From positions 186,001-250,000 of IMG/VR virus record IMGVR_UViG_3300035665_000001: a stretch of 64,000 nt of DNA. One strand, given 5' to 3'. This DNA comes from a virus. The position numbers and the translations under genes were made by a program. The notes beneath the pieces are model-generated. The model searched no databases, had not been told where the DNA came from, and was given only the letters and a program-made list of their open reading frames with translations. Below are positions 998 to 63,994 of the stretch, in pieces (position 1 is the stretch's first letter; the number at the start of each line of letters is the position of its first letter).

Positions 998-1513
998 ATG
1001 GCTGACGAAAAACTTAGTGCAAAATTTGCAAAATATTGTGGAGAAGGCAAACTTACCATGGTTAAAAAATATATTGCTGATAAAAATGTCGATGTTAATT
1101 GGAATATGAGTTCACCATTAACAAAAGCAGTTAAATATGATAAAATTGAAGTTGTGAAACTTTTACTATCTGACCCTCGATTACAAACCGATTTTGAGAA
1201 TAAAAAAGAGTTGCGTGGATCGTTAATGTATAATAACCCACCATTAGTTTTAAATAATGTTATTATCAATCCATTTACTGAGGCAATGTTTACTAAAAAG
1301 TATGATATTCTCGATTTATTTTTATCAGATGGTAGATTTACAACTAATCGAACTGAATATTTGGATATTTTATTAAAAATTGATGATGATGAATTGAACA
1401 ATTACTTTAAAAAAATTCCAGGGTTTAAAGAATATGCTGTTTCCAAAGTTAAAGAAAACAATGATTATGTTAAGATAATTTCTAAATCTGTTGCATCCAT
1501 TATGATGTTTTAA
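998..1513 (+). CDS. Ankyrin-like repeat protein
   Basis: A protein of 171 residues with degenerate ankyrin units: a first unit around FAKYCGEGKLTMVKKYIADK, then SPLTKAVKYDKIEVVKLLLSD with the A-x-x-x-x-x-x-x-VVKLLL pattern, and a third around FTEAMFTKKYDILDLFLSD. Such repeats usually mediate protein binding; the partner is unknown. The C-terminus (KSVASIMMF) is short and hydrophobic, like the ends of several neighbouring proteins. The stretch YFKKIPGFKEYA recurs in altered form in the small protein at 51081-51299 (YFKNIPSLREYT). It starts with ATG after an AAAAAGG ribosome site and lies 35 bases after the initiator-like gene. Confidence 0.65.
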   Translation: MADEKLSAKFAKYCGEGKLTMVKKYIADKNVDVNWNMSSPLTKAVKYDKIEVVKLLLSDPRLQTDFENKKELRGSLMYNNPPLVLNNVIINPFTEAMFTKKYDILDLFLSDGRFTTNRTEYLDILLKIDDDELNNYFKKIPGFKEYAVSKVKENNDYVKIISKSVASIMMF

Positions 1514-1605
1514 GAGTTTAACCACTAACTATTTGAATAATGAAATATCTAGTTTTTTGAAGTGGTGAGGATAAATAATTAAAACAAAAATATATAGGGG
1601 AAAAT

Positions 1606-2118
1606 ATGCGTATATTAGATTTAATTTTGGAATTCCAATTTGAAGAATTAGCTCAAGCATTATTTGAAAAAACAGGTGATGGTAAGAATGCAACAGTTGT
1701 CGCATGGGCTAAAAAATTAGATATGACTTATGAAGAATTACATAAAGTATGGGATAAATCTAAAAAAATAGCAAAAAGTGATACTGATTATGGTTTGATT
1801 ATGACTATTTTTAAAAGACAGGTTACCTCACTTAAAGGCGTAACTAAAAAACAACTTAAAGATGGTGGCGATGCTAAATTTAATTATAAAGTTAGAACAC
1901 AACAAACAATAGATCAGTTATTAGACGATAAACCTGCACCAAAATCCACAAATCGAGTTGAAGTTAAAAAAGCAGCAGTAAAACTTAAAAAAATTAGTCA
2001 AGAAATCAAAGATATTAAAAGTAGACCAAATAATACACCTACTAGAAAAGCTAGAAATAAAAAGGATTTGGCTGCAGCAATCGCTAAAAGAAAAGAAATT
2101 AAAGATTCATTAAATTGA
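1606..2118 (+). CDS. Basic protein with possible capsid-targeting N-terminus
   Basis: A lysine-rich protein of 170 residues. The N-terminus MRILDLILEF resembles the short capsid-targeting sequences of T4 internal proteins, which are cut by the prohead protease after an (I/L)-x-E site; here the candidate cut is after LILE. The remainder is helical and strongly basic towards the C-terminus (KKAAVKLKKISQEIKD and onward), as expected for a DNA-associated internal head protein. This role is inference. The start follows a GGGG-type ribosome site, and the gene ends just before a strong hairpin. Confidence 0.6.
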   Translation: MRILDLILEFQFEELAQALFEKTGDGKNATVVAWAKKLDMTYEELHKVWDKSKKIAKSDTDYGLIMTIFKRQVTSLKGVTKKQLKDGGDAKFNYKVRTQQTIDQLLDDKPAPKSTNRVEVKKAAVKLKKISQEIKDIKSRPNNTPTRKARNKKDLAAAIAKRKEIKDSLN

Positions 2119-2127
2119 TTTGCTTCC

Positions 2128-2170
2128 CTTTTAAGGGGAAATGAACTAAATGTTAAATTCCCCTTAAAAG
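2128..2170 (+). terminator. Intrinsic terminator
   Basis: A perfect 13-base inverted repeat (CTTTTAAGGGGAA and its complement at 2158-2170) with a 17-base loop is followed by a T-rich run at 2175-2200. It terminates the plus-strand gene ending at 2118. Its right arm overlaps the 3' end of the converging minus-strand gene. Confidence 0.8.
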
Positions 2171-3570
2171 AATATTATTTTTTTTATTTTTTCAGGTAAA
2201 TATTCTACTTTTTTGTTAGTTAACAAATATTGTATGAATTCCTTATTTTTCAATAGTGATTGTTTTAACTGATCACCATCATTTAAATATTTCATTATTG
2301 ATGCTTCATCAATAGCATAATCCATCATATTACTAATAGTCGTGTTTTCAATAAAAATTCTTATCAAATTTGTTGCAATTTTACCCTCATGAATCTTATT
2401 TCCACTAAACAATTTAAGCAATTGTAATAATATGGTAGGTTGGTAATCTGGAAAATGTACCAACAGTATTTTTAATAAAATTGCCTGTGATTGTAAGTTA
2501 GTTTCAAAAATAGTTTTTTTAATGAGTGATAACAATTGTACATTTTCATCATCTACTAATCGCAACCAGTCTTGATCTATCAGTAGTTGTAGAAATTTAT
2601 GATCCTGTAAACAGGTAAGTGTTATAACCGATGATTTTAATCTCCAGCTATTAAAATAATATTTTTTTGCATCTTTATAATCGATGAATCTTGCGAATGC
2701 TGCATTATTTTCCGTATCTAGTAGATATTGCAATATTTCTTGACCTGTTTCGAATGAAAAATCCCAATTCTTCAAGATGTTTATATATATTTTTTGATAA
2801 CTAACCCCAATTTCAAATAATTTAAATGTTTGTGATACATTGTGGTTATTGTCGTCATCAAATAATGCTAGGTTATCAATTTTAAAGTCAGACAAGTGGT
2901 ATAATATATCGGAATATATTTTGTTTTGTGATTTATCTGACATAATATGAAAAAATGAATGAATTACATCTTCAATTTTTGTAGATTTATTTTCTGTTAA
3001 AATTTTTAATAAATCTATATTTTCTTGAGCGATACTAAAATCGATTACCCAGTTTATTGGGTTTTTAACGGTTGATGAAATTTCATCTATATTATTAATA
3101 ATTAGTTTTAATTCATGTGGTTTCAACTTTTCATTAAACTGTGAAATTGGGGATTGTTTATTATCATCAAAACCATAACCCACATTTTTTGGTATGATTG
3201 AATCGTAATCAGTAGATTCGGCTGATTTAAAATTGGTTTCTATTTCAAAATCATTTTTAATTTCTTTAGAACTTAAAATATTCTCTTTTATATCTAAAAT
3301 TATTGATGAAATCACGCCATTTTCTATGGTATATGAATTTCTAATTTTGATATTATTTTTCTTTAAAATAACAACTAATTTTTCAAACTTATTATTTAAG
3401 GAGTTTACTTCATCCTTACCTAATGTATGAGCATCATAGATTTTTGAGTTTATAATGAAACCATTTTTTTGAAAAGGTTGCCATACTTGCATAATAGTAT
3501 GTATATTATTTTCAACACTACATTTTAGTCCTAAAGAAAGGACCATGTGCTCTAATTCACTTTTTTTCAT
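2164..3570 (-). CDS. Large alpha-helical protein with shared C-terminal peptide
   Basis: A protein of 468 residues with no recognised domain. The first 120 residues look like an alpha/beta domain; the remainder is a series of amphipathic helices suggestive of HEAT- or ankyrin-like repeats. It ends VEYLPEKIKKIIFF, a peptide that recurs in slightly changed form at the C-termini of the proteins at 3604, 7143, 7781 and 15616. It is the last gene of a minus-strand series running from 9920 to 2164 with short intergenic gaps. Function unknown. Confidence 0.65.
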   Translation of the reverse strand: MKKSELEHMVLSLGLKCSVENNIHTIMQVWQPFQKNGFIINSKIYDAHTLGKDEVNSLNNKFEKLVVILKKNNIKIRNSYTIENGVISSIILDIKENILSSKEIKNDFEIETNFKSAESTDYDSIIPKNVGYGFDDNKQSPISQFNEKLKPHELKLIINNIDEISSTVKNPINWVIDFSIAQENIDLLKILTENKSTKIEDVIHSFFHIMSDKSQNKIYSDILYHLSDFKIDNLALFDDDNNHNVSQTFKLFEIGVSYQKIYINILKNWDFSFETGQEILQYLLDTENNAAFARFIDYKDAKKYYFNSWRLKSSVITLTCLQDHKFLQLLIDQDWLRLVDDENVQLLSLIKKTIFETNLQSQAILLKILLVHFPDYQPTILLQLLKLFSGNKIHEGKIATNLIRIFIENTTISNMMDYAIDEASIMKYLNDGDQLKQSLLKNKEFIQYLLTNKKVEYLPEKIKKIIFF

Positions 3571-3603
3571 ATTATATTTCTCTGTTGAATATCTTTTAAC
3601 CGC

Positions 3604-4335
3604 CTAAAAAAATAGATCTTTGATTTCTGTAGGTATATATTTTAGATCCTTCGTTTTCTTATATAAGTATTTACCTATAACATTCCTCGTTTTTACATCG
3701 GATAATGCTGCAAATCTAGTTTCTAAGGATTTAATATCTATATTTCTATCTTTATTTAGAATATTTGATATAATTAATTCAACATTTTTTACTTTTTTAC
3801 TTAACGTTAAACAATATCTTATTATTGCATTGTAAATTGTTGACTCTGAATTAAATCCATCAATTTCATCGATAAGCTTGTTTAAAATTTCTACTTCTTT
3901 ACCTTTTTCTCGACTAAAAATAAGATACATAAAATCATTTATTTCTGAAAATGTTCCAAACCCAGCCATTTCTTTAAATGAACCGTCTAACGTAGCCATG
4001 TGTCTTATTATCCATTCTCTATCAATACTTTCAGAATCGAAACTTTTTTTAGCTATTGTCGAACTAAATTTGGTATAACATGTTACTGTTGAATCAAAGT
4101 AAGGTGTATCTTTTAATAGATCCATCATTTCTTTATAATCATCATATGAATCGAATTTATATTTTGACATAAATGCTGATAATATTGCTGCATCATACTT
4201 ATCAAGCTCTTTATTCGCTGGAATAGTATAAAATTCCATCAGTCTTTTAAAAGTTTTCTTTGTAGCGGGTGCTTTTTTTTTAAAAATTGAGAGAATAAAT
4301 ATTCTCCATTTAAGCTGGTTATTATTTAAAGTCAT
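3604..4335 (-). CDS. Helical protein with shared C-terminal peptide
   Basis: A protein of 243 residues, predominantly helical, unrecognised. The N-terminus is basic (IFKKKAPATKKTFKRL). It ends LKYIPTEIKDLFF, which matches the C-terminal pattern [YF][IL]P-x-x-I-x-x-[IL]-F seen in neighbours. The gap to the next minus-strand gene is 33 bases. Upstream, about 330 bases of non-coding, IS200/IS605-like remnant sequence separate it from the gene at 4663, so it may have its own promoter. Confidence 0.6.
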   Translation of the reverse strand: MTLNNNQLKWRIFILSIFKKKAPATKKTFKRLMEFYTIPANKELDKYDAAILSAFMSKYKFDSYDDYKEMMDLLKDTPYFDSTVTCYTKFSSTIAKKSFDSESIDREWIIRHMATLDGSFKEMAGFGTFSEINDFMYLIFSREKGKEVEILNKLIDEIDGFNSESTIYNAIIRYCLTLSKKVKNVELIISNILNKDRNIDIKSLETRFAALSDVKTRNVIGKYLYKKTKDLKYIPTEIKDLFF

Positions 4336-4363
4336 ATTTCATCCACATGTATAAAATTTGTGA

Positions 4364-4660
4364 AGCACTCCGACCTAAAGGACGGAGCTTCTAATGCTTG
4401 TTTCCAAGACTTACAAAGATCTTGATTTCAATGGAAATCACAGCCTTCTCTCCCAGAGACCAATTTGTTTTGGGAACCAAATAACTTCATGATTCTCCGA
4501 TCAACGATCCATTTATATTTGGATCTGCTACAATCTTTACAGATTGCATTAAATTTATTTTGTGGAAATCCACATTTTTATTTATATCGGATTTTGTGAA
4601 AAACTGCCTATCCATCCTAAGCCTAAAGTCCGAGGTCTTACGGTAGGAATGAATAAAATA
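4364..4660. mobile_element. Decayed IS200/IS605-like end (possible omega-RNA remnant)
   Basis: This gene-free stretch holds a hairpin at about 4364-4392, with arms AAGCACTCCG and CGGAGCTT around the loop motif CCTAAAGG, of the kind found at IS200/IS605 (TnpB) element ends. A second imperfect hairpin motif lies at about 4600-4660. A near copy of that second motif (CCTAAAGTCCGAGGTCTTA in both) recurs at about 35836-35880. Read on the minus strand, the first hairpin sits where a TnpB right end/omega-RNA would end. No tnpA or tnpB ORF remains. Assignment rests on recalled family features and the internal repeat. Confidence 0.4.
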
Positions 4661-4662
4661 TC

Positions 4663-5136
4663 TCATAAAAAAAATATATTTTCGATCTGTGAATTTTTTT
4701 TTATCATTTCCATCCATTTTAATTCCAAAGCTATTTTATTGAAATTTTTATTGTTAGATAGAATTTCAGTTTCAAATCTCTTTATTTCCGATAATAGAAA
4801 AAAATTTGCGATTTCTCTATCCCATCTTATGTAGGTAAACAAATTTGGAAACCTTTTTAATACCTTGGTATCATTAATGTTAATTAGATTGATGTTGATT
4901 AGTCCACCATTTCCTTTATACTGTTGCACTTCATTATCTGCGTCATTTTGAGTTTGAATTATCCATTCGAGAACTCTTTCAACATTATATTTATCATTCC
5001 AACCTAATAATTCTGCATCACCTTCACGCATTTCATCAATGATTTTTAATGCTTCATGTGCTGGATCATATTTGCTGTTGTATTTGGTTTCATAAAAATC
5101 TTTGACTTTTTTCCAATATTCATTCGTATCTAACAT
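4663..5136 (-). CDS. Small protein of unknown function
   Basis: A protein of 157 residues, mixed charged and helical, unrecognised. It has a WDREIANFFLLSEIKRFETEI helix and ends KKNSQIENIFFL, which partly resembles the C-terminal peptide of its neighbours. Its start has an AAGG ribosome site and lies 34 bases after the upstream gene. It belongs to the minus-strand series of helical proteins. The decayed transposon end lies directly beyond its stop, so the C-terminus could have been altered by that insertion. Confidence 0.55.
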   Translation of the reverse strand: MLDTNEYWKKVKDFYETKYNSKYDPAHEALKIIDEMREGDAELLGWNDKYNVERVLEWIIQTQNDADNEVQQYKGNGGLININLININDTKVLKRFPNLFTYIRWDREIANFFLLSEIKRFETEILSNNKNFNKIALELKWMEMIKKNSQIENIFFL

Positions 5137-13073: not shown

Positions 13074-14204
13074 ATGAAAACTAAAAATTATCATTATGTT
13101 TACAAAATTACAAATCATAATCCAGTAGATTCACGTAAGTTCTATATTGGTGTTAGAACAACGAAAGGGCGATTACCAGAAGATGATATTAATTATATGG
13201 GTTCATCAGATACATTAACCGCTGCAATTAAAACCCAAGGAAAAAAATATTTTTCTAAAGAAATTTTGTCAGTATGGCAATCAAAGGATGATGCATATGC
13301 TGAAGAAATAAGATTACATGAATTGTATGATGTTTGTAGAAACATGGAATATTATAATAATGCTAACCAAACGAGCACTAAATTTTGTACGGATGGTAGG
13401 GTTGTAGTGTTTGATAAGAACACGGGCAAAACAAAAAGTGTAACAAAAGAAGAATTTCAAACTGTTACTGATTATGTTGGTGTTAAAACAGGTATGGTTT
13501 CCGTAATGGATACTACCGATGGAGTATTTAAATCAGTGTCAAAGGAGGAATTTGAAAAATCCGAACATTATATTCATCCTGCAACTGGTAAAGTAACCGT
13601 GATTGATACCACCGATGGTTTAGTTAAACATGTGAACTGTACAGAATATAGAAGTTGTGAAAATTATGTTTCTATCGCTACTGGAACTGTAACGTGTTAT
13701 GATATTAGAGATGGAAAAAACAAACAAGTTTCTAAAGATGAATTTGATAATGCTGATAATTTAATCAGTTGTAATGCTGGAAAAGTTACTGTGCTTGATA
13801 CTCGTGATGGAATTAAGAAATCGGTAACTAAGGTAGAGTTTGATATTACCTCTCATTATGTCGGTGTTAAATCTGGTAGAGTTACCGCTTTCGATATTCG
13901 GGACAAAAAGTTTAAAACTGTTACGATTGAAGAATTTGCAAATGATGATAATTATGTGAAAGGTAATTCCAAAAAAGTTGTTATTTTTGATAATAATGAT
14001 AATGTGGTTTTTGTATCTTATGGCAATTTTGAAACTTTTTGTAAAAAACATAAATTGCCGTGCTTTGTATTTAGAATGTCATATCGTAATAATGGCAGTC
14101 CAATCTATCAAAATTTAAGAGGCGTAACAAAAGCAAAGATATTTAAAAATGGAAACTACAAATATATCGGTTGGTATGCTAAAATTAGTGATGATACAAC
14201 TTAA
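13074..14204 (+). CDS. GIY-YIG homing endonuclease with internal repeats
   Basis: A free-standing homing endonuclease that would cut an unoccupied target site and copy itself in. The GIY-YIG domain is N-terminal: YVY at 8-10, YIG at 24-26, then R28-like arginine and a Glu-containing helix (AYAEEIRLHELYDV). From about residue 108 to 310 there are roughly six repeats of about 33 residues on the theme GKVTVIDTTDG...KSVSKEEFE...HYI, apparently a DNA-contacting linker. The C-terminal KNGNYKYIGWYAKI resembles a DNA-binding tail. Its stop overlaps by 4 bases the stop of the terminase C-terminal fragment, so it sits exactly at the edge of a fractured gene. Confidence 0.8.
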   Translation: MKTKNYHYVYKITNHNPVDSRKFYIGVRTTKGRLPEDDINYMGSSDTLTAAIKTQGKKYFSKEILSVWQSKDDAYAEEIRLHELYDVCRNMEYYNNANQTSTKFCTDGRVVVFDKNTGKTKSVTKEEFQTVTDYVGVKTGMVSVMDTTDGVFKSVSKEEFEKSEHYIHPATGKVTVIDTTDGLVKHVNCTEYRSCENYVSIATGTVTCYDIRDGKNKQVSKDEFDNADNLISCNAGKVTVLDTRDGIKKSVTKVEFDITSHYVGVKSGRVTAFDIRDKKFKTVTIEEFANDDNYVKGNSKKVVIFDNNDNVVFVSYGNFETFCKKHKLPCFVFRMSYRNNGSPIYQNLRGVTKAKIFKNGNYKYIGWYAKISDDTT

Positions 14205-15511
14205 AAAACAGAAGGGAGAATATCCCATTTATCCATATCGGAGTCAGGATCATAATCATCATCCTCATCATATTCTACAACAGATGAACCATTTTGTGCC
14301 ATTCTGGCGTAGTATTCTCTTTCCTGTTTCTTTGCTTCTTCAATTAATTTTAGTTCTTCCTGTTTTTGTTGTTCTAATCGCAAAGTTTCTTTTTCTACTC
14401 GTTCTTTATATAATTTCGCAGGATCAATTTCTTCTTTATTGGTGTTGATAATTTTTTCATCTTTTTTAGTAATCAACATATTATCAACAGAAAAATCACC
14501 CATCGCGTAGTTTGCGAATTCATTAAGAAGATAATATACCATTAAGAATGAACAGGTGACTCTATCGTCAGTATAACCAGATTTAGCACAATACGCCCCA
14601 CCAGCTGTTCTAATAAATCCATATAATTCCTCAATAAATCTTCCATCTCGAATTACCATTTTGTCGTACTCAACCAAATTTTTAAATTGTAATGCTAGTT
14701 TATTTTTAAGAGTTGGGGTTATGTGTAATCCAGGTTTACCCTTAATATCATAGAAGATAGGCATTTCAAGATTTTCGATTGCCTTTTCAGTTTGGGTTAA
14801 AATTTGAGCTAATCCCTCACCAATACCATTACGTTCAAAGATAATAAGTGCTTCATTTGGTTCATACTGCCATCTTGTTCGCATGTAATCCTGTAACCAT
14901 AATAATTTTTCAAATAGTACTGATGCATCAGCAAATTCATCGACAAAAGAGGCGATTTCATAAACCTTATGTGGTGCTATTTCCCAAATTTGTAAACAAC
15001 TACTATTATTACCACCTGCGGATGGGTCAATAGTTACCACTAACAAACCATCATCGTGCTCCAATTTATCTTTAAAAATATTAAAACCATTAACATCCTC
15101 CTCAAGAATTTCAGGTATTTGGTAAAAATCTAAAATATCTGTAGAAATTAATGAAAGTTCGAAAGTGATGAAAGCACAATTATGGGTTTTTAATGAATTA
15201 GCCAATAAAAAACTGTGCTCATCGTTTTCAACCTCAATAATATCAAACATTTTGGTAAAATTGTGAATTTCATTGATTTCCTCCACCTCACACAAACCCG
15301 TTTCGGTTTTTAAATCAAACCCCACTAATAAATCTTTTGCTTTTATTAACAGGTTATTTGATGTCCAAAATAAATGTTCACCAGAACATTTTACCGAAAT
15401 ATCATTGCTTAATTTTATTTCAAAAAACGAATTATGTTCAGATGATGCTATTCCTGCAAACGCTTTGTAACCTTCAGGAGTTTTTATTTTAAATCTATTA
15501 TTTTTTACCAT
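14201..15511 (-). CDS. Terminase large subunit, C-terminal piece fused to C-terminal split-intein half
   Basis: The first 111 residues are a C-intein: TPEGYKAFAGI, a block-B-like region with CSGEHLFWT, block F MFDIIEVENDEHSFLLAN, and the splice end THN followed by Cys112. There is no block A, so the N-intein must be elsewhere. The candidate is the 46-residue tail of the ORF at 44010, because EFE there plus CAFITFELSLIS here rebuilds the T4 gp17-like EFECxF region. Residues 112-436 are the terminase nuclease: TIDPSAGG (D162), an ERNGIGEG motif and TDDRV. The tail is a charged coiled coil. The terminase would need trans-splicing from distant loci. Confidence 0.88.
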   Translation of the reverse strand: MVKNNRFKIKTPEGYKAFAGIASSEHNSFFEIKLSNDISVKCSGEHLFWTSNNLLIKAKDLLVGFDLKTETGLCEVEEINEIHNFTKMFDIIEVENDEHSFLLANSLKTHNCAFITFELSLISTDILDFYQIPEILEEDVNGFNIFKDKLEHDDGLLVVTIDPSAGGNNSSCLQIWEIAPHKVYEIASFVDEFADASVLFEKLLWLQDYMRTRWQYEPNEALIIFERNGIGEGLAQILTQTEKAIENLEMPIFYDIKGKPGLHITPTLKNKLALQFKNLVEYDKMVIRDGRFIEELYGFIRTAGGAYCAKSGYTDDRVTCSFLMVYYLLNEFANYAMGDFSVDNMLITKKDEKIINTNKEEIDPAKLYKERVEKETLRLEQQKQEELKLIEEAKKQEREYYARMAQNGSSVVEYDEDDDYDPDSDMDKWDILPSVF

Positions 15512-15615
15512 GAATTTTTTCTCAAATTAATGTAATTAAACTATATTTATGAATTTTTTGTTGAAACAATTACAAAAATAAATAAATATAATAAAATTAT
15601 AATTTGGAGAAAAAA

Positions 15616-43780: not shown

Positions 43781-44009
43781 CCACAAAAAATTGACACAAC
43801 CGTATATTTTCTTCAGAGTACACATTATGTCACTCAATTCAACAAGCCGGTAATCCTCAAAAATTTGTTAAAAATTCCAACACACGGGTATCTCACTACC
43901 CATAAGTTGACAAAAAATTGGTATTAATTAATTACGTTGACTTTTTTCATCACCTTGCTAAAAATTATAAATAGAATAACATCAGCAAAAAACTATTTAG
44001 AGTAAGATA

Positions 44010-44798
44010 ATGAAAGATATTAATGAGTGGGAGATTTTAACTCCAGAGGGATGGCGTGATTTTTCGGGAATTATCCAATTAGATAAGAAAGTTATCACTA
44101 TTGAATTTGATAATGGTAAACAGTTAACAGGTAGTGAAACACATCGAATTTTTTCTAAAATTGGAATACAAGAATTTAACACTTTAATGGTTGGTGATGA
44201 AATCAAAACCAATGATGGTTGGACTGTGGTAACTAAAATTTCAGATGTAAAACAAACTCAGAAAGTATATGATTTGGTAGAAGTAAAATCAGCTAACCAT
44301 CAATATTATACCAATGGTTTTGTTTCAAAAAATTGTGATGAGATTGCGTTTATTCCCAACAGAATTCAGGAAGAATTTATGTCTGGCACAACACCGGCTC
44401 TTTCTGCTACAAAAGGAAAAATGTTAATTACCTCAACGCCCAATGGTTCGAGAGATTTATTTGCGAAACTTTGGTTTGGATCCGGTATGACATGGGATAA
44501 AAAACAATATACATACGTCAGAAAAAATGAACCAAAAAACCTTTTTAGTCCATTATTTGTACCTTTTTGGATTGACCCAGAAAAAAACACTGATGAATGG
44601 ATTCACAGAGAAAAGATGACTCTCGATAGCCCAATAGCATGGAAAATAGAGTTTGAATGTATGTATCCAGATACGTTGATTGATGTATATGATGAAAAAA
44701 CTAAAAATTATCAAACAATAACTATAGAAGATATGTATCGAATGATACTTCGAGATGAAATTGAGAATAAAGTTATTATTGATGAATCTGATAATTAG
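44010..44798 (+). CDS. Terminase large subunit, middle piece flanked by two split-intein halves
   Basis: Residues 1-108 are a C-intein: ILTPEGWRDFSGI, a block-B-like GSETHRIF, LMVGDEIKTNDGW, block F VYDLVEVKSANHQYYTNGFV, end SKN then Cys109. Penultimate residue is Lys, not the usual His. The extein (109-216) is the ATPase Walker B and coupling region of a T4 gp17-like terminase: CDEIAFIPN with catalytic DE, then MLITSTPNGSRDLF. After EFE a second intein begins at Cys217 (CMYPDTLIDVYDEK, TITIEDMYRM) and stops after 46 residues. The N-terminal Walker A piece is not in the window; the next piece is at 14201 on the other strand. The design resembles the AceL-TerL split intein as I remember it. 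Confidence 0.88.
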   Translation: MKDINEWEILTPEGWRDFSGIIQLDKKVITIEFDNGKQLTGSETHRIFSKIGIQEFNTLMVGDEIKTNDGWTVVTKISDVKQTQKVYDLVEVKSANHQYYTNGFVSKNCDEIAFIPNRIQEEFMSGTTPALSATKGKMLITSTPNGSRDLFAKLWFGSGMTWDKKQYTYVRKNEPKNLFSPLFVPFWIDPEKNTDEWIHREKMTLDSPIAWKIEFECMYPDTLIDVYDEKTKNYQTITIEDMYRMILRDEIENKVIIDESDN

Positions 44799-55176: not shown

Positions 55177-55470
55177 ATGGCTAAGAAAGACACAACCACA
55201 TCTACATCTAAAAGTGCCACACCTAAAAAAAATGATTTATTCACCAAAATGAGAAAAAACATTCTTAAAAAGAATGAAGATGCAATGTTAGATTTAACGG
55301 AACCTACTGTTTGGGCATCATCTGGAAATTATGTATTAAATCATATTTTGAGTGGTAGATTTCATAGAGGTTATCCTTCTGGAAGAATTGTACAAATTTT
55401 TGGTGATTCTGGGTGTTTATTGCCACATGAAAAAATAAAAGTGTATGAATTCAAATCAAATATTGTATGA
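55177..55470 (+). CDS. uvsX: UvsX/RecA recombinase, N-terminal piece with an 18-residue N-intein
   Basis: A protein of 97 residues. Residues 1-79 are the N-terminal region of a UvsX/RecA-type strand-exchange ATPase, with LNHILSGRFHRGYPSGRIVQ leading to the first half of the P-loop, IFGDSG. At residue 80 the recombinase breaks off and an intein begins (CLLPHEKIKVYEFKSNIV), ending after only 18 residues. The second half of the P-loop (SGKS) is encoded in the next gene after a C-intein. Neither ORF alone could bind ATP, so trans-splicing is required. An 18-residue N-intein is shorter than the 25 residues I recall for AceL-TerL. Confidence 0.9.
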   Translation: MAKKDTTTSTSKSATPKKNDLFTKMRKNILKKNEDAMLDLTEPTVWASSGNYVLNHILSGRFHRGYPSGRIVQIFGDSGCLLPHEKIKVYEFKSNIV

Positions 55471-55533
55471 AATACTTGTTAAATTATTATAAAACTAACA
55501 ATCAAAAAATAAAAAACTTTATTGGAGAACAAA

Positions 55534-56856
55534 ATGATTGAAAACAATGTTAGAGAATTAACTGATAAAGAAAAATTACTGGAATTAAAAGAATGGTATT
55601 CCTCTGATGAATTATCAAAATCCCTTGATGTTACTGAAGAAATGCTTGGTAATTTTTTAAATGATAAAAGTTCTTTTACATTAACAAATTCTGAGAAATT
55701 GAACGATTTTTTTAATAACCATGTTCATGAAAATTCAAAATTTGAAATGATTAAAAATGTTTATGGTTTGTGGGAAACTGATGAAAAACAATTTATGGTT
55801 GATACTCCTGATGGGTTTCAATTTGTTAGTGAATTTATTCATAAAGATTCAAGAAGTTGCTTTGACTTAAGAACCGATAATTTTCATATTGAATGTTCGG
55901 GTGACCATTTGATTGAAACTGATAAAGGTTGGGTGAAAACTGAAGATATTGTAGTTGGTTCAAAAGTGTTAACCCGTGTTGGTTTTGAGGAAGTTAAATC
56001 AAATGCACAACTTAGTGATAGTGATGTTTACGATATGACTGTTGAACATGATAATCATCGATATTGGGGTGGTGCCGGTATTTCATCACATAATTCTGGT
56101 AAATCTTTTCTTATGGCTAAAGCGATTGTTGAGGCTCAAAAAGAAGGTTATATGGTGGCAGTATTAGATTCGGAACAAGCGGTTTCACAGGATTATTTGA
56201 AAAAAATTGGGGTTGATTTAGACCCATCAATGTTAATGACTGTGCAGGTACAAACAGTTGAACAAACTCAAGATATGCTTCTAGAAGTTTTGGAAGGTGT
56301 TAAGGAAGAACAAGAAGCTTTAGGAAATACCAAAGAACTAAAATTATTACTGATTGTTGATTCCATTGGTATGCTTTCATCTGGAAAAGCACTAGCAAAT
56401 GCTGAAGCTGGACATCACGCGGCTGATATGGGTACTAAAGCAAAAGCATTAACCAATATGTTCAACCAAATTGTACAAAAAGTTGGTATTACTGAAACTG
56501 TTTGTTTAGTAACTAATCATGGAGCATTAGAAGTTGGAGTTATGTTCCCACAACTCAAACCAAAAGGTGGACAATGTTTAGTAGCAGGTACAAAAGTACA
56601 AACTGATAAAGGTTATAAAAATATTGAAGAAATCCAAGTTGGTGATATGGTGAGAACACACTTGAACCAAATTAAACCTGTTGAAAAATTATTTAGTTTC
56701 GATAATCTTGATATTCTTAATTTTGAATTAGAAACAGGACAAAACATTAAAATGTCGAAGGATCATAAAATGTTAGTTTTGCGAAATGGTGAAAAATTGT
56801 GGTTGGAAGCTCAATTTATAACTACTTATGATTCATTGTTAGCACTTGATGTTTAA
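55534..56856 (+). CDS. uvsX: UvsX/RecA recombinase, middle piece between two split-intein halves
   Basis: A protein of 440 residues from ATG 55534 (GGAG site). Residues 1-~85 are an extra helical, possibly HTH-like leader (WYSSDELSKSLDVTEEML). 86-187 are the C-intein (VDTPDGFQFV, block-B-like CSGDHLIET, block F VYDMTVEHDNHRYWGGAGI, end SHN). Ser188 starts the extein SGKSFLMAKA, finishing the P-loop, through LLIVDSIGML (Walker B) and LVTNHGALEVGVM to KPKGGQ at 347. Cys348 begins a second, 93-residue N-intein (CLVAGTKVQTDKGYKNIEEI, VGDMVRTH, SKDHKMLVL). Its partner is at 57946. A strong terminator follows. Confidence 0.92.
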   Translation: MIENNVRELTDKEKLLELKEWYSSDELSKSLDVTEEMLGNFLNDKSSFTLTNSEKLNDFFNNHVHENSKFEMIKNVYGLWETDEKQFMVDTPDGFQFVSEFIHKDSRSCFDLRTDNFHIECSGDHLIETDKGWVKTEDIVVGSKVLTRVGFEEVKSNAQLSDSDVYDMTVEHDNHRYWGGAGISSHNSGKSFLMAKAIVEAQKEGYMVAVLDSEQAVSQDYLKKIGVDLDPSMLMTVQVQTVEQTQDMLLEVLEGVKEEQEALGNTKELKLLLIVDSIGMLSSGKALANAEAGHHAADMGTKAKALTNMFNQIVQKVGITETVCLVTNHGALEVGVMFPQLKPKGGQCLVAGTKVQTDKGYKNIEEIQVGDMVRTHLNQIKPVEKLFSFDNLDILNFELETGQNIKMSKDHKMLVLRNGEKLWLEAQFITTYDSLLALDV

Positions 56857-56870
56857 TAATTAAATGGATT

Positions 56871-56894
56871 GGGGTGGATATTGAAATCCACCCC
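56871..56894. terminator. Strong intrinsic terminator between converging genes
   Basis: GGGGTGGAT / ATCCACCCC stem (9 bases, perfect), loop ATTGAA, then ATTTTTTTATT. It ends the uvsX middle piece and, on the other strand, the tail-fibre-like gene. Its presence inside the three-part uvsX locus means piece three needs its own transcription start. Confidence 0.9.
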
Positions 56895-56900
56895 ATTTTT

Positions 56901-57397
56901 TTATTGTACAGCCCCATATCTAGAACCAGTAACCAACCATGTAATTGAACTGTTTCCACTTATTGATGCACCACCTGAACCACCACCTGAACCCATATCG
57001 TTGTATGATGTTTTACCACCGCCACCACCACAGATTGCACCTGCTTGACCTGTAAATGCTGAACCGCCTGTACCTGCTGTCCTACCATATGAGTTAGAAC
57101 CATTAGTTCCGTATGTCGCACCTATCCAGTTTTCAGTACCACTTCCCCATGGTGAAGCACCACCAGCACCACCTTGAGTTTGTGTACCACTGTTACCATT
57201 ACCACCAGCGGCATAACCAAAACTTGTTTCCGTTCCACCTGATGCAGGTGAATTATTCGAATCGGACTGTCTAGCAGTTGTTTCTGCAGCTAAATTAGTA
57301 GTTAAAGTTGCATCTGCAGCTTGTCTCGCAGTTACCTCATTTGCAATATTGGTAGCAACAACACTACCGATTTTTTTTTAAATATTGAATCGACCAT
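56901..57397 (-). pseudogene. Glycine-rich tail-fibre-like protein, frameshifted at a poly-A run
   Basis: From ATG 57397 (AGGAG site) the frame reads MVDSIFKKK then meets nine A's (T's at 57371-57379 on the plus strand) and goes out of frame. With one extra A it continues for about 155 residues: GSVVATNIANEVTARQAADA (a fibre-type coiled-coil repeat), then Gly-rich GGASPWGSGTENWIGATYG, AGAICGGGGGKTSYNDMGSG and ITWLVTGSRYGAVQ to TAA 56901-56903. Gly-rich tips of this kind occur in phage adhesins. The gene is oriented against uvsX and sits between pieces two and three. Length change of the A-run could switch it on or off. Confidence 0.7.
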
Positions 57398-57477
57398 TTG
57401 TATCTCCTATTTAATAACTATTAAAAATCGGTATGATTTTTTGAATGAATCCACTTGTGTGGAATATGTTATATTTA

Positions 57478-57789
57478 TCAAATAGTATCATTTTGCGGAA
57501 CTAAATTTCGTTCTAAAACACCCCATTTATGTAATCTTCTTAGTTCTGCAGAATGATCACGGCAGCAGGTTTTATTAAATCCAGCACCAATTGACACAAA
57601 TTTTGTTACTTTATTACATTTTGGATGTTGACATATATTGCTGTCTGGATGATAAAATAAATAAATTTTTGCATCTGTCGGTGTACCTTCAAAAAGTTTG
57701 GAATCCTCACATTCATTTAACCATAACCCAACGTTATGTTTGAATCCTTTTTCTTTGTTTTTTATAAAATATGTTTCAAAATTATTCAT
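57478..57789 (-). CDS. Homing-endonuclease N-terminal remnant
   Basis: A protein of 103 residues: a helical start then NICQHPKCNKVTKFVSIGAG, KTCCRDHSAELRRLHKWGVL. The C-x4-C ... C-C-x-x-H pattern with 'F-x-x-x-G-x-G-[FY]' resembles the zinc-binding leader of free-standing phage homing endonucleases (Vsr-like type); the nuclease part is missing. It lies in the uvsX locus exactly between pieces two and three, where a homing endonuclease is expected. Confidence 0.5.
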   Translation of the reverse strand: MNNFETYFIKNKEKGFKHNVGLWLNECEDSKLFEGTPTDAKIYLFYHPDSNICQHPKCNKVTKFVSIGAGFNKTCCRDHSAELRRLHKWGVLERNLVPQNDTI

Positions 57790-57945
57790 TTGTTTTTTTC
57801 TCCTGAAAATAATATAGTATTATACATTAAGTGACAATTCATCTTATTATCGAGTGATAGGCAAAAAATAAATTTTTAAGATTTTACTTTTATCTCATTT
57901 GATTGTAAAATAATAGTTAATAACCATTCACTAAAGGAGTATTTT

Positions 57946-58614
57946 ATGAACTCAAATGAGTTTTTAGTCGATTCAAATTATAAACCAGTTAAGATTAAAT
58001 CTATTACCCCTGTGGCAATAGAAAAAACTTATGATTTTCAAGTTGCTGACGATCATAGTTTTTTATTAGAAAATAATATAATTTCAAGTAATTGTATGGA
58101 ATTTGTACCATCAATTTCTTTGCGTGTAACTAAAGGTAAGATTAAACCCACTGATTTGGCAGAATTAGAATATTTGTATGATGGTGGAATACCAAAACAT
58201 TTGGGTGCTTTAGGGATTGTATCGAGAATTGAATTGTATAAATCCCGATTTACCCGACCTTTTAGAAAGGTACAATTGATGATTCCATACGATTTTGGAT
58301 TACCTGAATATGCGGGATTATTTGATTATCTCAAAGATAATGGTATAATTATTGAAAATGGTAGAAAAGGTTATTATAATTGTACTGAGGTACAATTTGA
58401 AAAAGATTTTACTAGAAAAGATTTTATTAAAGGTGGTTGGGCTGATTTAATTATGGAACATTTATTAGCTGAGGAAACCAAAGGTAGAATTTATGATTTT
58501 ATTATGAAATCTAGTGATGATGATGCCCGAGAAAAAGAACAAGGATTAGATTCAATTGATGACTCTTACATTGAAGATGATGATATGGATGAATCGGAAT
58601 TTAATGTTGAATAA
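57946..58614 (+). CDS. uvsX: UvsX/RecA recombinase, C-terminal piece with C-intein
   Basis: A protein of 222 residues. Residues 1-49 are a C-intein: KPVKIKSITPVAIEKTYDFQ and block F TYDFQVADDHSFLLENNII, ending SSN then Cys50. The penultimate residue is Ser rather than the usual His. Residues 50-222 are the UvsX C-terminal part (CMEFVPSISLRVTKGKIKPT, then a helical DNA-binding region and acidic tail DDDMDESEFNVE). GGQ (end of piece two) joined to CMEF rebuilds the RecA-family 'GG-x-x-[LM]-[EK]-F' strand. AAAGGAG site; own promoter needed because of the terminator at 56871. Confidence 0.9.
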   Translation: MNSNEFLVDSNYKPVKIKSITPVAIEKTYDFQVADDHSFLLENNIISSNCMEFVPSISLRVTKGKIKPTDLAELEYLYDGGIPKHLGALGIVSRIELYKSRFTRPFRKVQLMIPYDFGLPEYAGLFDYLKDNGIIIENGRKGYYNCTEVQFEKDFTRKDFIKGGWADLIMEHLLAEETKGRIYDFIMKSSDDDAREKEQGLDSIDDSYIEDDDMDESEFNVE

Positions 58615-60796: not shown

Positions 60797-60960
60797 TCAT
60801 CCGATATGGATTAGTAAAAATTGATTATAATTGGATTAATACTCGAGCATATTATATTTACTTAGAAACTAACGAAGATGATGATTTTAAAAATTGGTTA
60901 CAGGCTCAGGAAGAATATTTCATTTTTGTTAATATGGATGAAGGAAGAATAAATGGCTAA
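60793..60960 (+). CDS. Small protein coupled to RNase H and polymerase
   Basis: A 55-residue ORF, MIIRYGLVKIDYNWINTRAY then acidic NEDDDFKNWLQAQEEYFIFV. It overlaps the RNase H stop by 4 bases and the polymerase start by 8 bases. This tight overlap at both ends supports it as a real, translationally coupled gene. Unrecognised. Confidence 0.55.
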   Translation: MIIRYGLVKIDYNWINTRAYYIYLETNEDDDFKNWLQAQEEYFIFVNMDEGRING

Positions 60961-62692
60961 CTATATTGATTTTGCTTATTTAGGTAAAACCGCAGACCCA
61001 ACAGGCATTAGAGTGTGGGAACAAAATTATGAAACAGGTAAAATTGATGAGAAAGATTATGACATAAAAGATTATTTGTATTTTTACATTGATGCTACTG
61101 ACGAGAACAAAATTGAAAAAAATTTAATTTCTCAAAGGGGAACAAAAGTTAAAAAAGTGGTTGCAGATAACTTTAAAGTTCTTAGAAATGGTGAATCTGC
61201 GAAAATGTTTCATAGTTTAAATCTTAATACTTATGAGTCTGATATTGAACCCTTACATAAGGTAATGTTGGATAATTATGGAAAAGATCATCAAAAAGCC
61301 ACTAATTGGAATTTAGCTTTATATGATATTGAAACGGATGTTCGTATGGAGGATTCTTTTATGGGTATGCGAGCAAATGCAGATCGAGAGATAAACGCTA
61401 TTTCTGTGTGGTATTCGAAACCAAATAAATTTTATAATTTTACCGTTGTACCACCTATGCTGCGAGATGAATGGGATTTTGATACTATTGAAACTCGTGG
61501 TAATTTTGAGATTATCTATTTTGATAATGAAGAAGAAATGCTGGAAACATTTTTCACAGTTACAAAAAAACATGAAACTATGGCATTAGGTGCGTGGAAT
61601 GGGGATTTTTTCGATACCAAGTATATTTTTGATAGATGCAAAAATATTTGGAAAGAAAAAGGTGCTGCAGAACGAATGGGGCGGTTTACAAAAGTTAAAA
61701 AAACTAAAATCATGTTGGGTGAAAAAGAAGAAATTTTGGTTAGACCAATTGGTATGATTTGGTACGATTGTATGGAGGCTTATAAGAAAAATGGTCCAGA
61801 ATTAGAATCGTTTGCTCTAAATGCTGTAGTTGAACATGAAAATTTGGGAAGTAAGTTAGATTTTGAAGGGTCGTTTGAAACTTTATATCACGGAAGTAGA
61901 AAAGATAGAGATAGATTTTTAGAATTAACACCAAAGAAAAAAAGAAAAAATTTGATTAAAAAATCTAATGAGATTGGAAACTCGGTTATTTCTGATTTGG
62001 GGTTATATAGCGAATGTAAAGATATGTTGAAGATGGATACAAGCATCGAAGAATATGAATTGGAAACTCGAATTCAAATAAGTATTACTGATAGATTGGA
62101 AGAGCTTCTCAAAATGAATGAAACCAAAGAAGATTTAGGTGATATGTTTGAGGATTTTGAACGATTTGTAGTGTATAAAAAGTTAACAGATACTTATAGA
62201 CTTTTTGTTGATTATTCTAATCAGGATAGTCAACTTTTACATGATTTAGAAATGAAGTTGGAAAAATTTAAAACTCTTATGATGTTGGCACAGTATAATG
62301 TATCATCGTTTTATGATGTATTTTCTACACTCAAACAGGTTGAACAGGGTATTACTAATTTTGCTCATTTATATAATAATAAAGTTGTTATTGATCGAGA
62401 GTATGATAAGAAAAAACAGATTTATAATAAATTTGTTGATAAAGATTTGTTACAAATCAGAATCGACAATGATACTCGTATACAACCAAATGATAATCGG
62501 AAGATAAGAGAAATAAAAACTCTTTTGGAGCAAAAAAAAATACCTGGAGCCAACGTGCTTCAACCATACGTAGGATTGATTTCTTACAATGAGGCGGAAA
62601 CACCACAGTTAGCAAGAGAATTCAAATCATTAAAAAATGAATTGCGAGAAATAGATGAACAGTTAAAACAATTTGAAATGGATGAAAATTAG
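60953..62692 (+). CDS. Family B DNA polymerase, N-terminal and 3'-5' exonuclease piece only
   Basis: A protein of 579 residues resembling the first part of T4 gp43. Exo I is ALYDIETD (D125, E127), Exo II is LGAWNGDFFD (N215, D220), Exo III region around YDCMEAYKKNGPELESFALN and LDFEGSFETLYH. The helix before the palm is present (LEKFKTLMMLAQYNVSSF) and PGANVLQPYVG matches the 'GA-x-V-x-x-P-x-x-G' just before polymerase motif A. The protein then ends after about 40 unrelated charged residues, with no SLYPS motif. The polymerase domain must be in another gene. No intein half is visible at its end, so this break differs from those in uvsX and terminase. Confidence 0.85.
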   Translation: MANYIDFAYLGKTADPTGIRVWEQNYETGKIDEKDYDIKDYLYFYIDATDENKIEKNLISQRGTKVKKVVADNFKVLRNGESAKMFHSLNLNTYESDIEPLHKVMLDNYGKDHQKATNWNLALYDIETDVRMEDSFMGMRANADREINAISVWYSKPNKFYNFTVVPPMLRDEWDFDTIETRGNFEIIYFDNEEEMLETFFTVTKKHETMALGAWNGDFFDTKYIFDRCKNIWKEKGAAERMGRFTKVKKTKIMLGEKEEILVRPIGMIWYDCMEAYKKNGPELESFALNAVVEHENLGSKLDFEGSFETLYHGSRKDRDRFLELTPKKKRKNLIKKSNEIGNSVISDLGLYSECKDMLKMDTSIEEYELETRIQISITDRLEELLKMNETKEDLGDMFEDFERFVVYKKLTDTYRLFVDYSNQDSQLLHDLEMKLEKFKTLMMLAQYNVSSFYDVFSTLKQVEQGITNFAHLYNNKVVIDREYDKKKQIYNKFVDKDLLQIRIDNDTRIQPNDNRKIREIKTLLEQKKIPGANVLQPYVGLISYNEAETPQLAREFKSLKNELREIDEQLKQFEMDEN

Positions 62693-63924
62693 ATTCTCTC
62701 TTTAATTAGATTCACACATTTTTCTACCATCTGTTCTATATTTTCTTTTGTTTCATAATCCCAAATTTCGATTACAGTGAACCCTTTTTTTTCAGCAGAT
62801 GCTAATTTTAATCTGTCCAATTCAAATTTTTCATCTGCTGATTTTCCTGTCCAAGGACATCTCCATCGTTCCCATTGCTCAGTTGTTAATTTTTCTTTTG
62901 ATGGGTGTACATGACTTCCATTATATTCAAAAATTAATTTTAGTGGTAAAATAGTATAATCGAATGAATGCAGTTTTGTACCTTCTTCAATTTTGTATTC
63001 ACAAGAGTTTTCAACGCCGTAAAAAATATCAGAAAAATCAATACCGTGTGCAAGTGAAAAATCAGTTAAATGTTTAAAAAATGCCAATGATTCTTTGGAA
63101 GCAATATAACCTGCATTGCTGTTTTTGTATTTTTTCCATCTGGTCAACCCTTCTTCATATCCATGAACTCTGATGAAATTCTCTTTAGTATTTGCAGATC
63201 GTTTACAAAATAGGTTGTATTTCTTTTCACCTAATTCTGTACCATACCGGGAAATGAAATTCTCCTTACTTAATTTAGATTTTTCTTTAAATTCTACCCA
63301 TTTTTGTTTTCCCAATTCTTCTCCATGCCGAAGTTTAAAATTTTCTTCGGATAGCATGCACTTTTTTTTCCATGATTTGTATTTCTTTTCACCCAATTCA
63401 ACACCATGACGTTTTTGCATTTTTTCTAAAGTTTGTCCACCTCTTGTAGAAATTGCCTTGGTAAACAATTTCAACCCTTCATCATTTCCATATTTCTTAG
63501 TGAATTTTTCTAAGGTAAGCACTTTTTTTGAATTCATTTCAGTGTATCTTCTAGATCCTTCTTCCAATCCATATTTTTCTACTTGTCCCTCTAACGTGTT
63601 ACCAATACCTTTTTTTCTGTTATTATCAAGATATTTTTTTAAACCTATCTCGTCACCATACTTTAACCTAAAATAATGTTCAGTGTTAGATTTAGTCTTT
63701 AGAAATTTTTTAAATCGGACTACTAAATTTTCTTCTAGGGTAGTGGTAGATATTAGCATACAATGAAACGAATATCTTTGTTCTTGTGTTAAATTTCCTC
63801 CCAATACTAAGTTGACGTCTTTTAATCTTTCAATCCCAATGTTTTCAAAAGTAATCCCATTCTCCTTAAAAAACTTATTGGTGAACGCTCTTTTCGTTTT
63901 TAAATTTAATTCTGAATATTTCAT
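62689..63924 (-). CDS. Vsr-like homing endonuclease with 'YGxExGxxKY' repeats
   Basis: A protein of 411 residues. Residues about 75-270 carry about seven repeats of about 30 residues (EKFTKKYGNDEGLKLFTKAI, ENFKLRHGEELGKQKWVEFK). The C-terminus is a Vsr/PD-(D/E)xK-type nuclease: HSFDYTILPLKLIFEYNGSH, then EKFELDRLKLASAEKKGFTV, IEIWDYE. The same architecture occurs at 44807. Its stop overlaps the stop of the truncated polymerase by 4 bases, on the other strand. It therefore sits precisely at the polymerase break and probably caused or maintains it. Confidence 0.8.
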   Translation of the reverse strand: MKYSELNLKTKRAFTNKFFKENGITFENIGIERLKDVNLVLGGNLTQEQRYSFHCMLISTTTLEENLVVRFKKFLKTKSNTEHYFRLKYGDEIGLKKYLDNNRKKGIGNTLEGQVEKYGLEEGSRRYTEMNSKKVLTLEKFTKKYGNDEGLKLFTKAISTRGGQTLEKMQKRHGVELGEKKYKSWKKKCMLSEENFKLRHGEELGKQKWVEFKEKSKLSKENFISRYGTELGEKKYNLFCKRSANTKENFIRVHGYEEGLTRWKKYKNSNAGYIASKESLAFFKHLTDFSLAHGIDFSDIFYGVENSCEYKIEEGTKLHSFDYTILPLKLIFEYNGSHVHPSKEKLTTEQWERWRCPWTGKSADEKFELDRLKLASAEKKGFTVIEIWDYETKENIEQMVEKCVNLIKERI

Positions 63925-63994
63925 GTTAACCGATTATTATTGTATAATTTAAATATATTATTATACAAATTTATGTATTTGAAGGTGTTTTCTT

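Follow-up and report, generated by a model that had tools for sequence, protein, structure and literature searches.

We analysed a 64,000-nucleotide stretch of viral DNA (hereafter the window), which spans bases 186001–250000 of the 306,333-base IMG/VR record IMGVR_UViG_3300035665_000001. The record belongs to a large bacterial virus in which, judged from sequence, a DNA-recombination enzyme of the UvsX/RecA type is spread over three separate genes. A single UvsX recombinase is very probably made from these genes by means of two predicted split inteins. The P-loop is divided at GDSG/SGKS and a second cut falls at GGQ/CMEF (slashes mark the cuts), both where a first-pass annotation of the window had placed them. 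The four intein halves that it described are all found: the N-inteins start with Cys, and the C-inteins end in Asn followed by Ser at site 1 and by Cys at site 2. The nearest relatives of the window's UvsX and TerL proteins come from tailed phages of the jumbo and T4-like kinds. The uvsX pieces are laid out as follows (aa, amino acids):

55177–55470 (+): piece 1, a 79-aa extein and an 18-aa N-intein
55177–55413 (+): uvsX N-extein, 79 aa, ending in IFGDSG, the first half of the P-loop
55414–55470 (+): N-intein 1, 18 aa (CLLPHEKIKVYEFKSNIV) plus stop; atypical short N-half of the S1 type
55534–56856 (+): piece 2, best start ATG at 55534; a 187-aa C-intein, a 160-aa extein and a 93-aa N-intein
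55534–56094 (+): C-intein 1, 187 aa, ending in HRYWGGAGISSHN (GISSHN); residues ~1–83 are an extra domain, predicted to be helical
56095–56574 (+): uvsX middle extein, 160 aa, from SGKS (second half of the P-loop) to KPKGGQ
56575–56856 (+): N-intein 2, 93 aa, CLVAGTKV...LLALDV plus stop; canonical split, Hint_2 above cut-off
57946–58614 (+): piece 3, a 49-aa C-intein and a 173-aa extein
57946–58092 (+): C-intein 2, 49 aa, ending in SFLLENNIISSN (IISSN)
58093–58614 (+): uvsX C-extein, 173 aa, starting with CMEFVPSI, plus stop

The joined recombinase

Joined at the predicted splice points, the three exteins form a chain of 412 residues that restores the P-loop (GDSGSGKS), contains the core motifs and aligns end to end with UvsX/RecA. 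Relative to jumbo-phage UvsX, with which the chain shares 30–33% identity, there is no gap or duplication at the junctions. Both junctions are also covered gap-free in the matches to E. coli RecA, other solved recombinases and 2,267 phage records, and the joined protein is continuous across both in a nine-member UvsX alignment (the window with 121Q, Atu_ph07, Phosso, XaC1, PA5oct, SCTP-2, Pm5461 and EniLVp02). The 79-aa N-extein matches positions 1–84 of the phrog_97 UvsX profile, and the three pieces match a single PHROG family, the UvsX-like recombinase, in order. The first-pass view of three open reading frames (ORFs) as successive parts of one recombinase agrees residue for residue in extein lengths and positions, and the uninterrupted model of ~412 residues that it anticipated is obtained.

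A UvsX profile built without the window sequence scores the join at 225.2 bits, against 41, 114 and 45 bits for pieces 1, 2 and 3 taken separately. Displacing any single one of the four boundaries by 1–6 residues in either direction lowers the score in every case. At the level of sequence, chance is excluded by these boundary shifts, the Hint and VidaL homology, the invariant splicing residues and the occurrence of the same site-1 split elsewhere. No second uvsX, which the first-pass annotation had named as evidence that would speak against it, was found with the UvsX profile or the Pfam RecA model in the 306-kilobase (kb) record, which is possibly incomplete, and an intact copy may lie beyond it. 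When IMG/VR was scanned for exact peptides of the joined UvsX or of a DNA polymerase part (described below), no close relative was returned.

Two split inteins of different class

Intein 1, which interrupts the P-loop, is of the VidaL type and atypically split into an 18-residue N-half and a 187-residue C-half. Piece 2 matches Hint/intein Pfam models, and the C-half of the intein matches VidaL in the PDB (6vgv, E=1e-14). An AlphaFold model of piece 2, built from a 36-row alignment, is confident over most of residues 6–329 and low in confidence beyond. Its top fold match is VidaL (1.5 Å root-mean-square deviation over 123 aligned columns), followed by the Mtu RecA and DnaB inteins and, for the extein part, by T4 UvsX/RecA. 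The splicing residues are in place (C1, SGDH, D167/H175 and HN/S), and H125, D167, H175, H186 and N187 are invariant in the 36-row alignment of relatives, as is the P-loop Lys. VidaL, a fast split intein that occurs in nature, has an N-half of 16 aa; across naturally occurring atypical inteins the N-halves span 15–37 aa, and the S1 split position lies right after the second β strand (PMC13014065). The 18-aa N-half in the window falls inside this range. Among its relatives, site-1 N-halves are mostly 15–16 aa long and range from 15 to 33 aa, with one of 43.

At its N terminus, C-intein 1 carries ~83 additional residues, modelled as a helical domain that the PA5oct and SCTP-2 forms do not have. 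Similar extensions occur on about 17 contigs with long C-inteins, and a related one is found on the PhoH intein of the uncultured phage LR756500 (N-half CLYPDEKIKIYKMKSKN..., compared with CLLPHEKIKVYEFKSN... in the window). In an intein tree with few well-resolved forks, the window row is closest by identity (47%) to this PhoH intein. The extension (window 55534–55782) weakly resembles a helix-turn-helix (HTH_3, E=0.19). As guesses, the domain might help to capture the N-half, or might be a leftover DNA-binding domain. The family of intein 1 is found in the P-loops of UvsX, PhoH and AAA proteins. In the 462-kb LR756500.1 (L113 767–4029; the same in L118), phoH is split at the P-loop by this intein family, with a 26-aa N-half and an endonuclease-like gene between the halves.

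Intein 2 is canonically split (93 + 49 aa). Its cut at GGQ/CMEF lies directly C-terminal to the stretch aligned with the end of RecA loop L2. The expected residues are in place here as well (C1, SKDH, TYDFQVADDH and SN/C). The closest solved relatives are DnaE inteins (E=5e-5); among phages, the second of the two inteins in SCTP-2 UvsX is closest (33%). The classic RecA intein sites of mycobacteria were considered as counterparts of site 2; that of M. tuberculosis sits elsewhere (KNK/C), and we claim no site identity. The Hint fold is supported by sequence and model for intein 1 and by sequence for intein 2, whose modelled part is of low confidence. The first-pass annotation described two split inteins, and both are indeed split; their classes differ, intein 1 being atypical and VidaL-like and intein 2 canonical.

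In the mechanism that we propose, the 18-aa N-intein of piece 1 would dock on the large C-intein that opens piece 2. Cys1 of intein 1 would form a thioester, the chain would be transferred to Ser+1 of SGKS, and Asn187, with a His before it, would cyclise, sealing the P-loop as GDSG-SGKS. The 93-aa N-intein of piece 2 would pair with the 49-aa C-intein of piece 3, joining GGQ to CMEF beside L2. The two trans-splicing reactions could occur in either order, and only the doubly spliced protein would be expected to bind and hydrolyse ATP.

Intein halves bind one another tightly ahead of splicing, as is generally known of split inteins, and a working UvsX might accordingly be assembled from docked halves, with no peptide bond made. 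We consider this extremely improbable: unspliced inteins inside the P-loop and beside L2 would block ATP and DNA binding, and docking alone would not need the conserved set of splicing residues.

Trans-splicing, which we favour, places a constraint on piece 2. Its order of C-intein, extein and N-intein is that of the laboratory design for circular proteins, and it would be circularised if N-intein 2 were able to pair with C-intein 1, so that orthogonality must have been solved in nature. In the window and five relatives, a short-N-half intein at site 1 is combined with a canonical intein at site 2. The use of two different split classes would probably prevent cross-reaction and allow the combination to be tolerated. 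It is rare in nature for a protein to be put together from three separately translated parts with the help of two different split inteins. Three-part protein ligation is a candidate use for the pairs whose 18-aa and 93-aa N-halves occur in this one host protein.

Intervening sequences and the origin of the locus

Pieces 1 and 2 are separated by a 63-base-pair (bp) gap with stop codons in all frames, and are therefore not joined through readthrough or frameshift. Between pieces 2 and 3 lie:

56870–56895 (+): intrinsic-terminator-like hairpin of 10 pairs followed by a T run, 3′ of piece 2
56901–57397 (−): small, glycine-rich, tail-fibre-like gene, its frame interrupted at a homopolymer run
57478–57789 (−): 103-aa ORF that matches the zinc-ribbon domain at the N terminus of Hef-like homing endonucleases encoded elsewhere in this genome

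The terminator and the fibre-like gene were both noted in the first-pass annotation, and both are there; the picture differs in that the fibre-like gene is on the minus strand, is frame-broken and has an endonuclease remnant alongside. No Pfam family matched the fibre-like gene. The 103-aa ORF has no match among the phage records searched and was identified only via paralogues in the same genome: a 171-aa ORF (E=1.6e-25) and, more weakly and through the N-terminal zinc-ribbon domain, two full-length Hef-like endonucleases of ~600 aa (record 73030–74856 and 118693–120501). We read this ORF as an inverted, truncated remnant of a homing endonuclease. Such a remnant beside the fibre-like gene would link the locus with genes of the ‘fractured’ class.

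The frame break at the homopolymer run might suggest an assembly or sequencing error in a contiguous gene, and the interruptions could otherwise have been self-splicing introns acting at the RNA level. Either is barely credible here. Rfam gave no match in the region at E≤1, and thus no intron; the intervening sequences encode intein blocks, and the 63-bp gap is closed by stops in all three frames. The same splits recur in independent assemblies and isolated phages, and at site 1 PA5oct and independent contigs refute an intron or assembly error.

Several points weigh against the assembly of one UvsX from three genes. C-intein 2 carries Ser in place of His ahead of its terminal Asn, with Cys at +1. 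Ser at this position also occurs in DnaE split inteins. Site 2 lies one residue downstream of the site in SCTP-2, Pm5461 and EniLVp02 (GG/S or GG/T), so that it is a neighbouring site and not exactly the same allele. In a sigma-70 scan, no promoter for piece 3 rose above shuffled sequence; the terminator-like hairpin and the minus-strand genes ahead of piece 3 suggest that it probably needs a transcript of its own. Finally, we infer trans-splicing in this phage from the completeness of the predicted machinery.

These observations could be accommodated by a decaying pseudogene, the pieces being relics of an intein-disrupted uvsX in a phage that relies on host RecA. The frame-broken gene and truncated endonuclease between pieces 2 and 3 would fit such decay, as would the lack of the usual penultimate His in C-intein 2. 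It is nevertheless very unlikely, since the three frames are open, all splicing residues and recombinase motifs are kept and nothing has been lost at the junctions. Identical split states are also found in many divergent phages, and no other recombinase of the UvsX/RecA family was found in the record.

The locus is most likely a relic of homing-endonuclease invasion, its product rebuilt by two trans-splicing reactions. Inteins would have homed into conserved uvsX codons, and homing-endonuclease genes would then have broken the inteins. Last, the endonucleases would have decayed, leaving the 63-bp gap at site 1 and the inverted remnant with the fibre-like gene at site 2. A parallel exists in T4, where the endonuclease SegA, whose gene adjoins uvsX, cuts uvsX (PMC2988022).

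The splits might instead be kept as a control device, in which joining (through its rate, redox state or the relative dosage of piece 3 as a separate transcript) times the appearance of active recombinase. The strong terminator-like hairpin and minus-strand genes that separate piece 3 from pieces 1 and 2 would suit such a device, as would the placement of the genome's split intein junctions in key replication, nucleotide and packaging enzymes. We regard it as unlikely. No regulatory feature was found at the locus, the pieces in related contigs are adjacent or endonuclease-separated, and both SCTP-2 inteins are unsplit, so that a neutral, homing-driven origin suffices.

Other split genes and comparison with known systems

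The genome was read in 20-kb stretches and searched with intein models and a local profile. It is rich in inteins, and uvsX is one among several intein-split genes. The large subunit of ribonucleotide reductase (NrdA) is encoded by three adjacent genes (record 106990–110468, +) with two canonical split inteins; its joined exteins (802 residues) match the full-length family. An AAA ATPase is encoded by two genes (record 1110–5035, −), with an atypical split intein in its second P-loop (GEPGIGK/T).

TerL is divided into four genes spread over 61 kb and both strands, with three atypical split inteins of the short-N-half type. The genes lie at record positions:

184957–185400 (−)
169358–170113 (−)
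230001–230798 (+), window 44001–44798
200201–201526 (−), window 14201–15526

The cuts fall at SRQMSK/T, FVY/CDE and EFE/CAF, and the joined exteins match T4-type TerL. In the isolate SCTP-2, whose genome is recorded as complete, TerL pieces lie 40 kb apart on opposite strands and share two of these cut sites, a finding that speaks against misassembly as an explanation for the dispersal. The TerL locus is arguably stranger than the uvsX locus.

Further split or interrupted genes were observed. C-terminal parts with a C-intein are present for a topoisomerase II large subunit (record 117459–118697, +; followed by the Hef-like endonuclease gene at 118693–120501) and for a DnaB-like helicase (record 159019–159603, −); a search of the record for the N-halves of both found neither. 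A portal-like protein (record 63427–66627, +) contains two unsplit inteins close together, the second exceeding mini-intein length. The N-terminal part of a DNA polymerase (579 aa; window 60953–62692, +) ends early and is followed by a homing-endonuclease-like gene (window 62689–63933, −) resembling that in the split phoH of LR756500.

The further split intein pairs in this genome have to function together in the same cell. We consider it improbable that the virus represents a phage group in which recombinase (three genes), ribonucleotide reductase (three), terminase (four) and AAA (two) are all trans-spliced so that joining times replication and packaging. Within that reading, about ten mutually non-cross-reacting split inteins would form a post-translational timing layer.

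Relatives of the uvsX locus were sought in IMG/VR. A scan with UvsX alone ranked records by extein similarity and was uninformative on split forms, which were revealed by a scan with the junction alignment that returned 80 loci. Among the distinct UvsX loci in these best 80, 39 have a split site-1 intein and 16 an unsplit one, indicative counts that rest on pattern rules. The spacing between pieces at site 1 has two modes, about 30–400 bp and about 1100–1460 bp, consistent with an endonuclease that is absent or present. PA5oct and dozens of viral contigs are split at exactly this site-1 codon boundary. Two split inteins in one recombinase, which the first-pass annotation singled out, are seen here but are not singular: both sites are split in five further distinct viral contigs. 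All three uvsX genes are visible in L145, L148 and L165 (L166 and L169 have the same sequence as L165), and L152 and L170 end at the contig edge. The presence of the three-gene layout in several other uncultured phages indicates that this variant of a known phenomenon is real and recurrent. In two other loci (L124 and L125), UvsX carries the split intein in its P-loop and another one at a further site (TNHTYA/C...MHN/SIGSF), and an endonuclease-like gene lies in between.

Split inteins, atypical splits and fractured phage genes are already known. No description combining a split intein and UvsX was found in the literature searched, which was available in part and did not take in key intein papers. 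The intein passages of the MIJ3 paper report a split intein in PolB and mention no split uvsX; MIJ3 has the same C-intein in its recA/uvsX gene. What appears to be new is one recombinase encoded by three genes, with two split inteins that differ in class, an arrangement met repeatedly among viral contigs; we do not claim priority.

Intein 1 shares its fold, sequence and S1-type split with VidaL (PDB 6vgv, 6vgw), with an N-half of 18 rather than 16 aa; it differs in the extra ~80-residue domain of its C-half, which is helical in the model. Pseudomonas phage PA5oct and its relatives (Wroclawvirus) have the same site (GESG/SGKS), a 17-aa N-half and a C-half of the same family, and the second PA5oct piece (the C-half plus SGKSY) is annotated as a UvsX-like recombinase. 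In contrast to the window, PA5oct has a single split, hence two genes, and no site-2 intein. The 477-aa ORF between its uvsX pieces has no Pfam match and is probably a homing endonuclease.

Proteus phage Pm5461 and Vibrio phage EniLVp02, both T4-like, resemble the window at the other site: the same loop is interrupted by a canonical split intein, with halves of 96 aa (N) and 35 aa (C), and a homing-endonuclease gene (NUMOD3) lies between the uvsX pieces. Their insertion follows GG and not GGQ, they have no site-1 intein, and uvsX is in two genes. Gene 204 of Salicola phage SCTP-2 unites both inteins in one UvsX, with an identical site 1 and a site 2 one residue upstream; unlike those in the window, both are unsplit and lie in a single gene. 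The three-gene contigs from IMG/VR share the atypical split at site 1 and the canonical split at site 2. They differ in that C-intein 1 is short (about 125 aa), that site 2 reads GG/SG... and that pieces 2 and 3 are separated by an endonuclease or a short gap, where the window has inverted genes.

Dassa et al. reportedly described in 2009 ‘fractured genes’, in which a split intein divides a phage enzyme gene in two and the parts flank an endonuclease gene. By comparison, uvsX in the window is in three parts; site 1 has a 63-bp gap and no endonuclease gene, and site 2 has a putative inverted Hef-like remnant. Relatives have full-length endonuclease or endonuclease-like genes between the uvsX fragments. 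The locus and its relatives form a series on how inteins break genes, in which uvsX is unsplit, split once or split twice and the endonuclease is present, decayed or gone.

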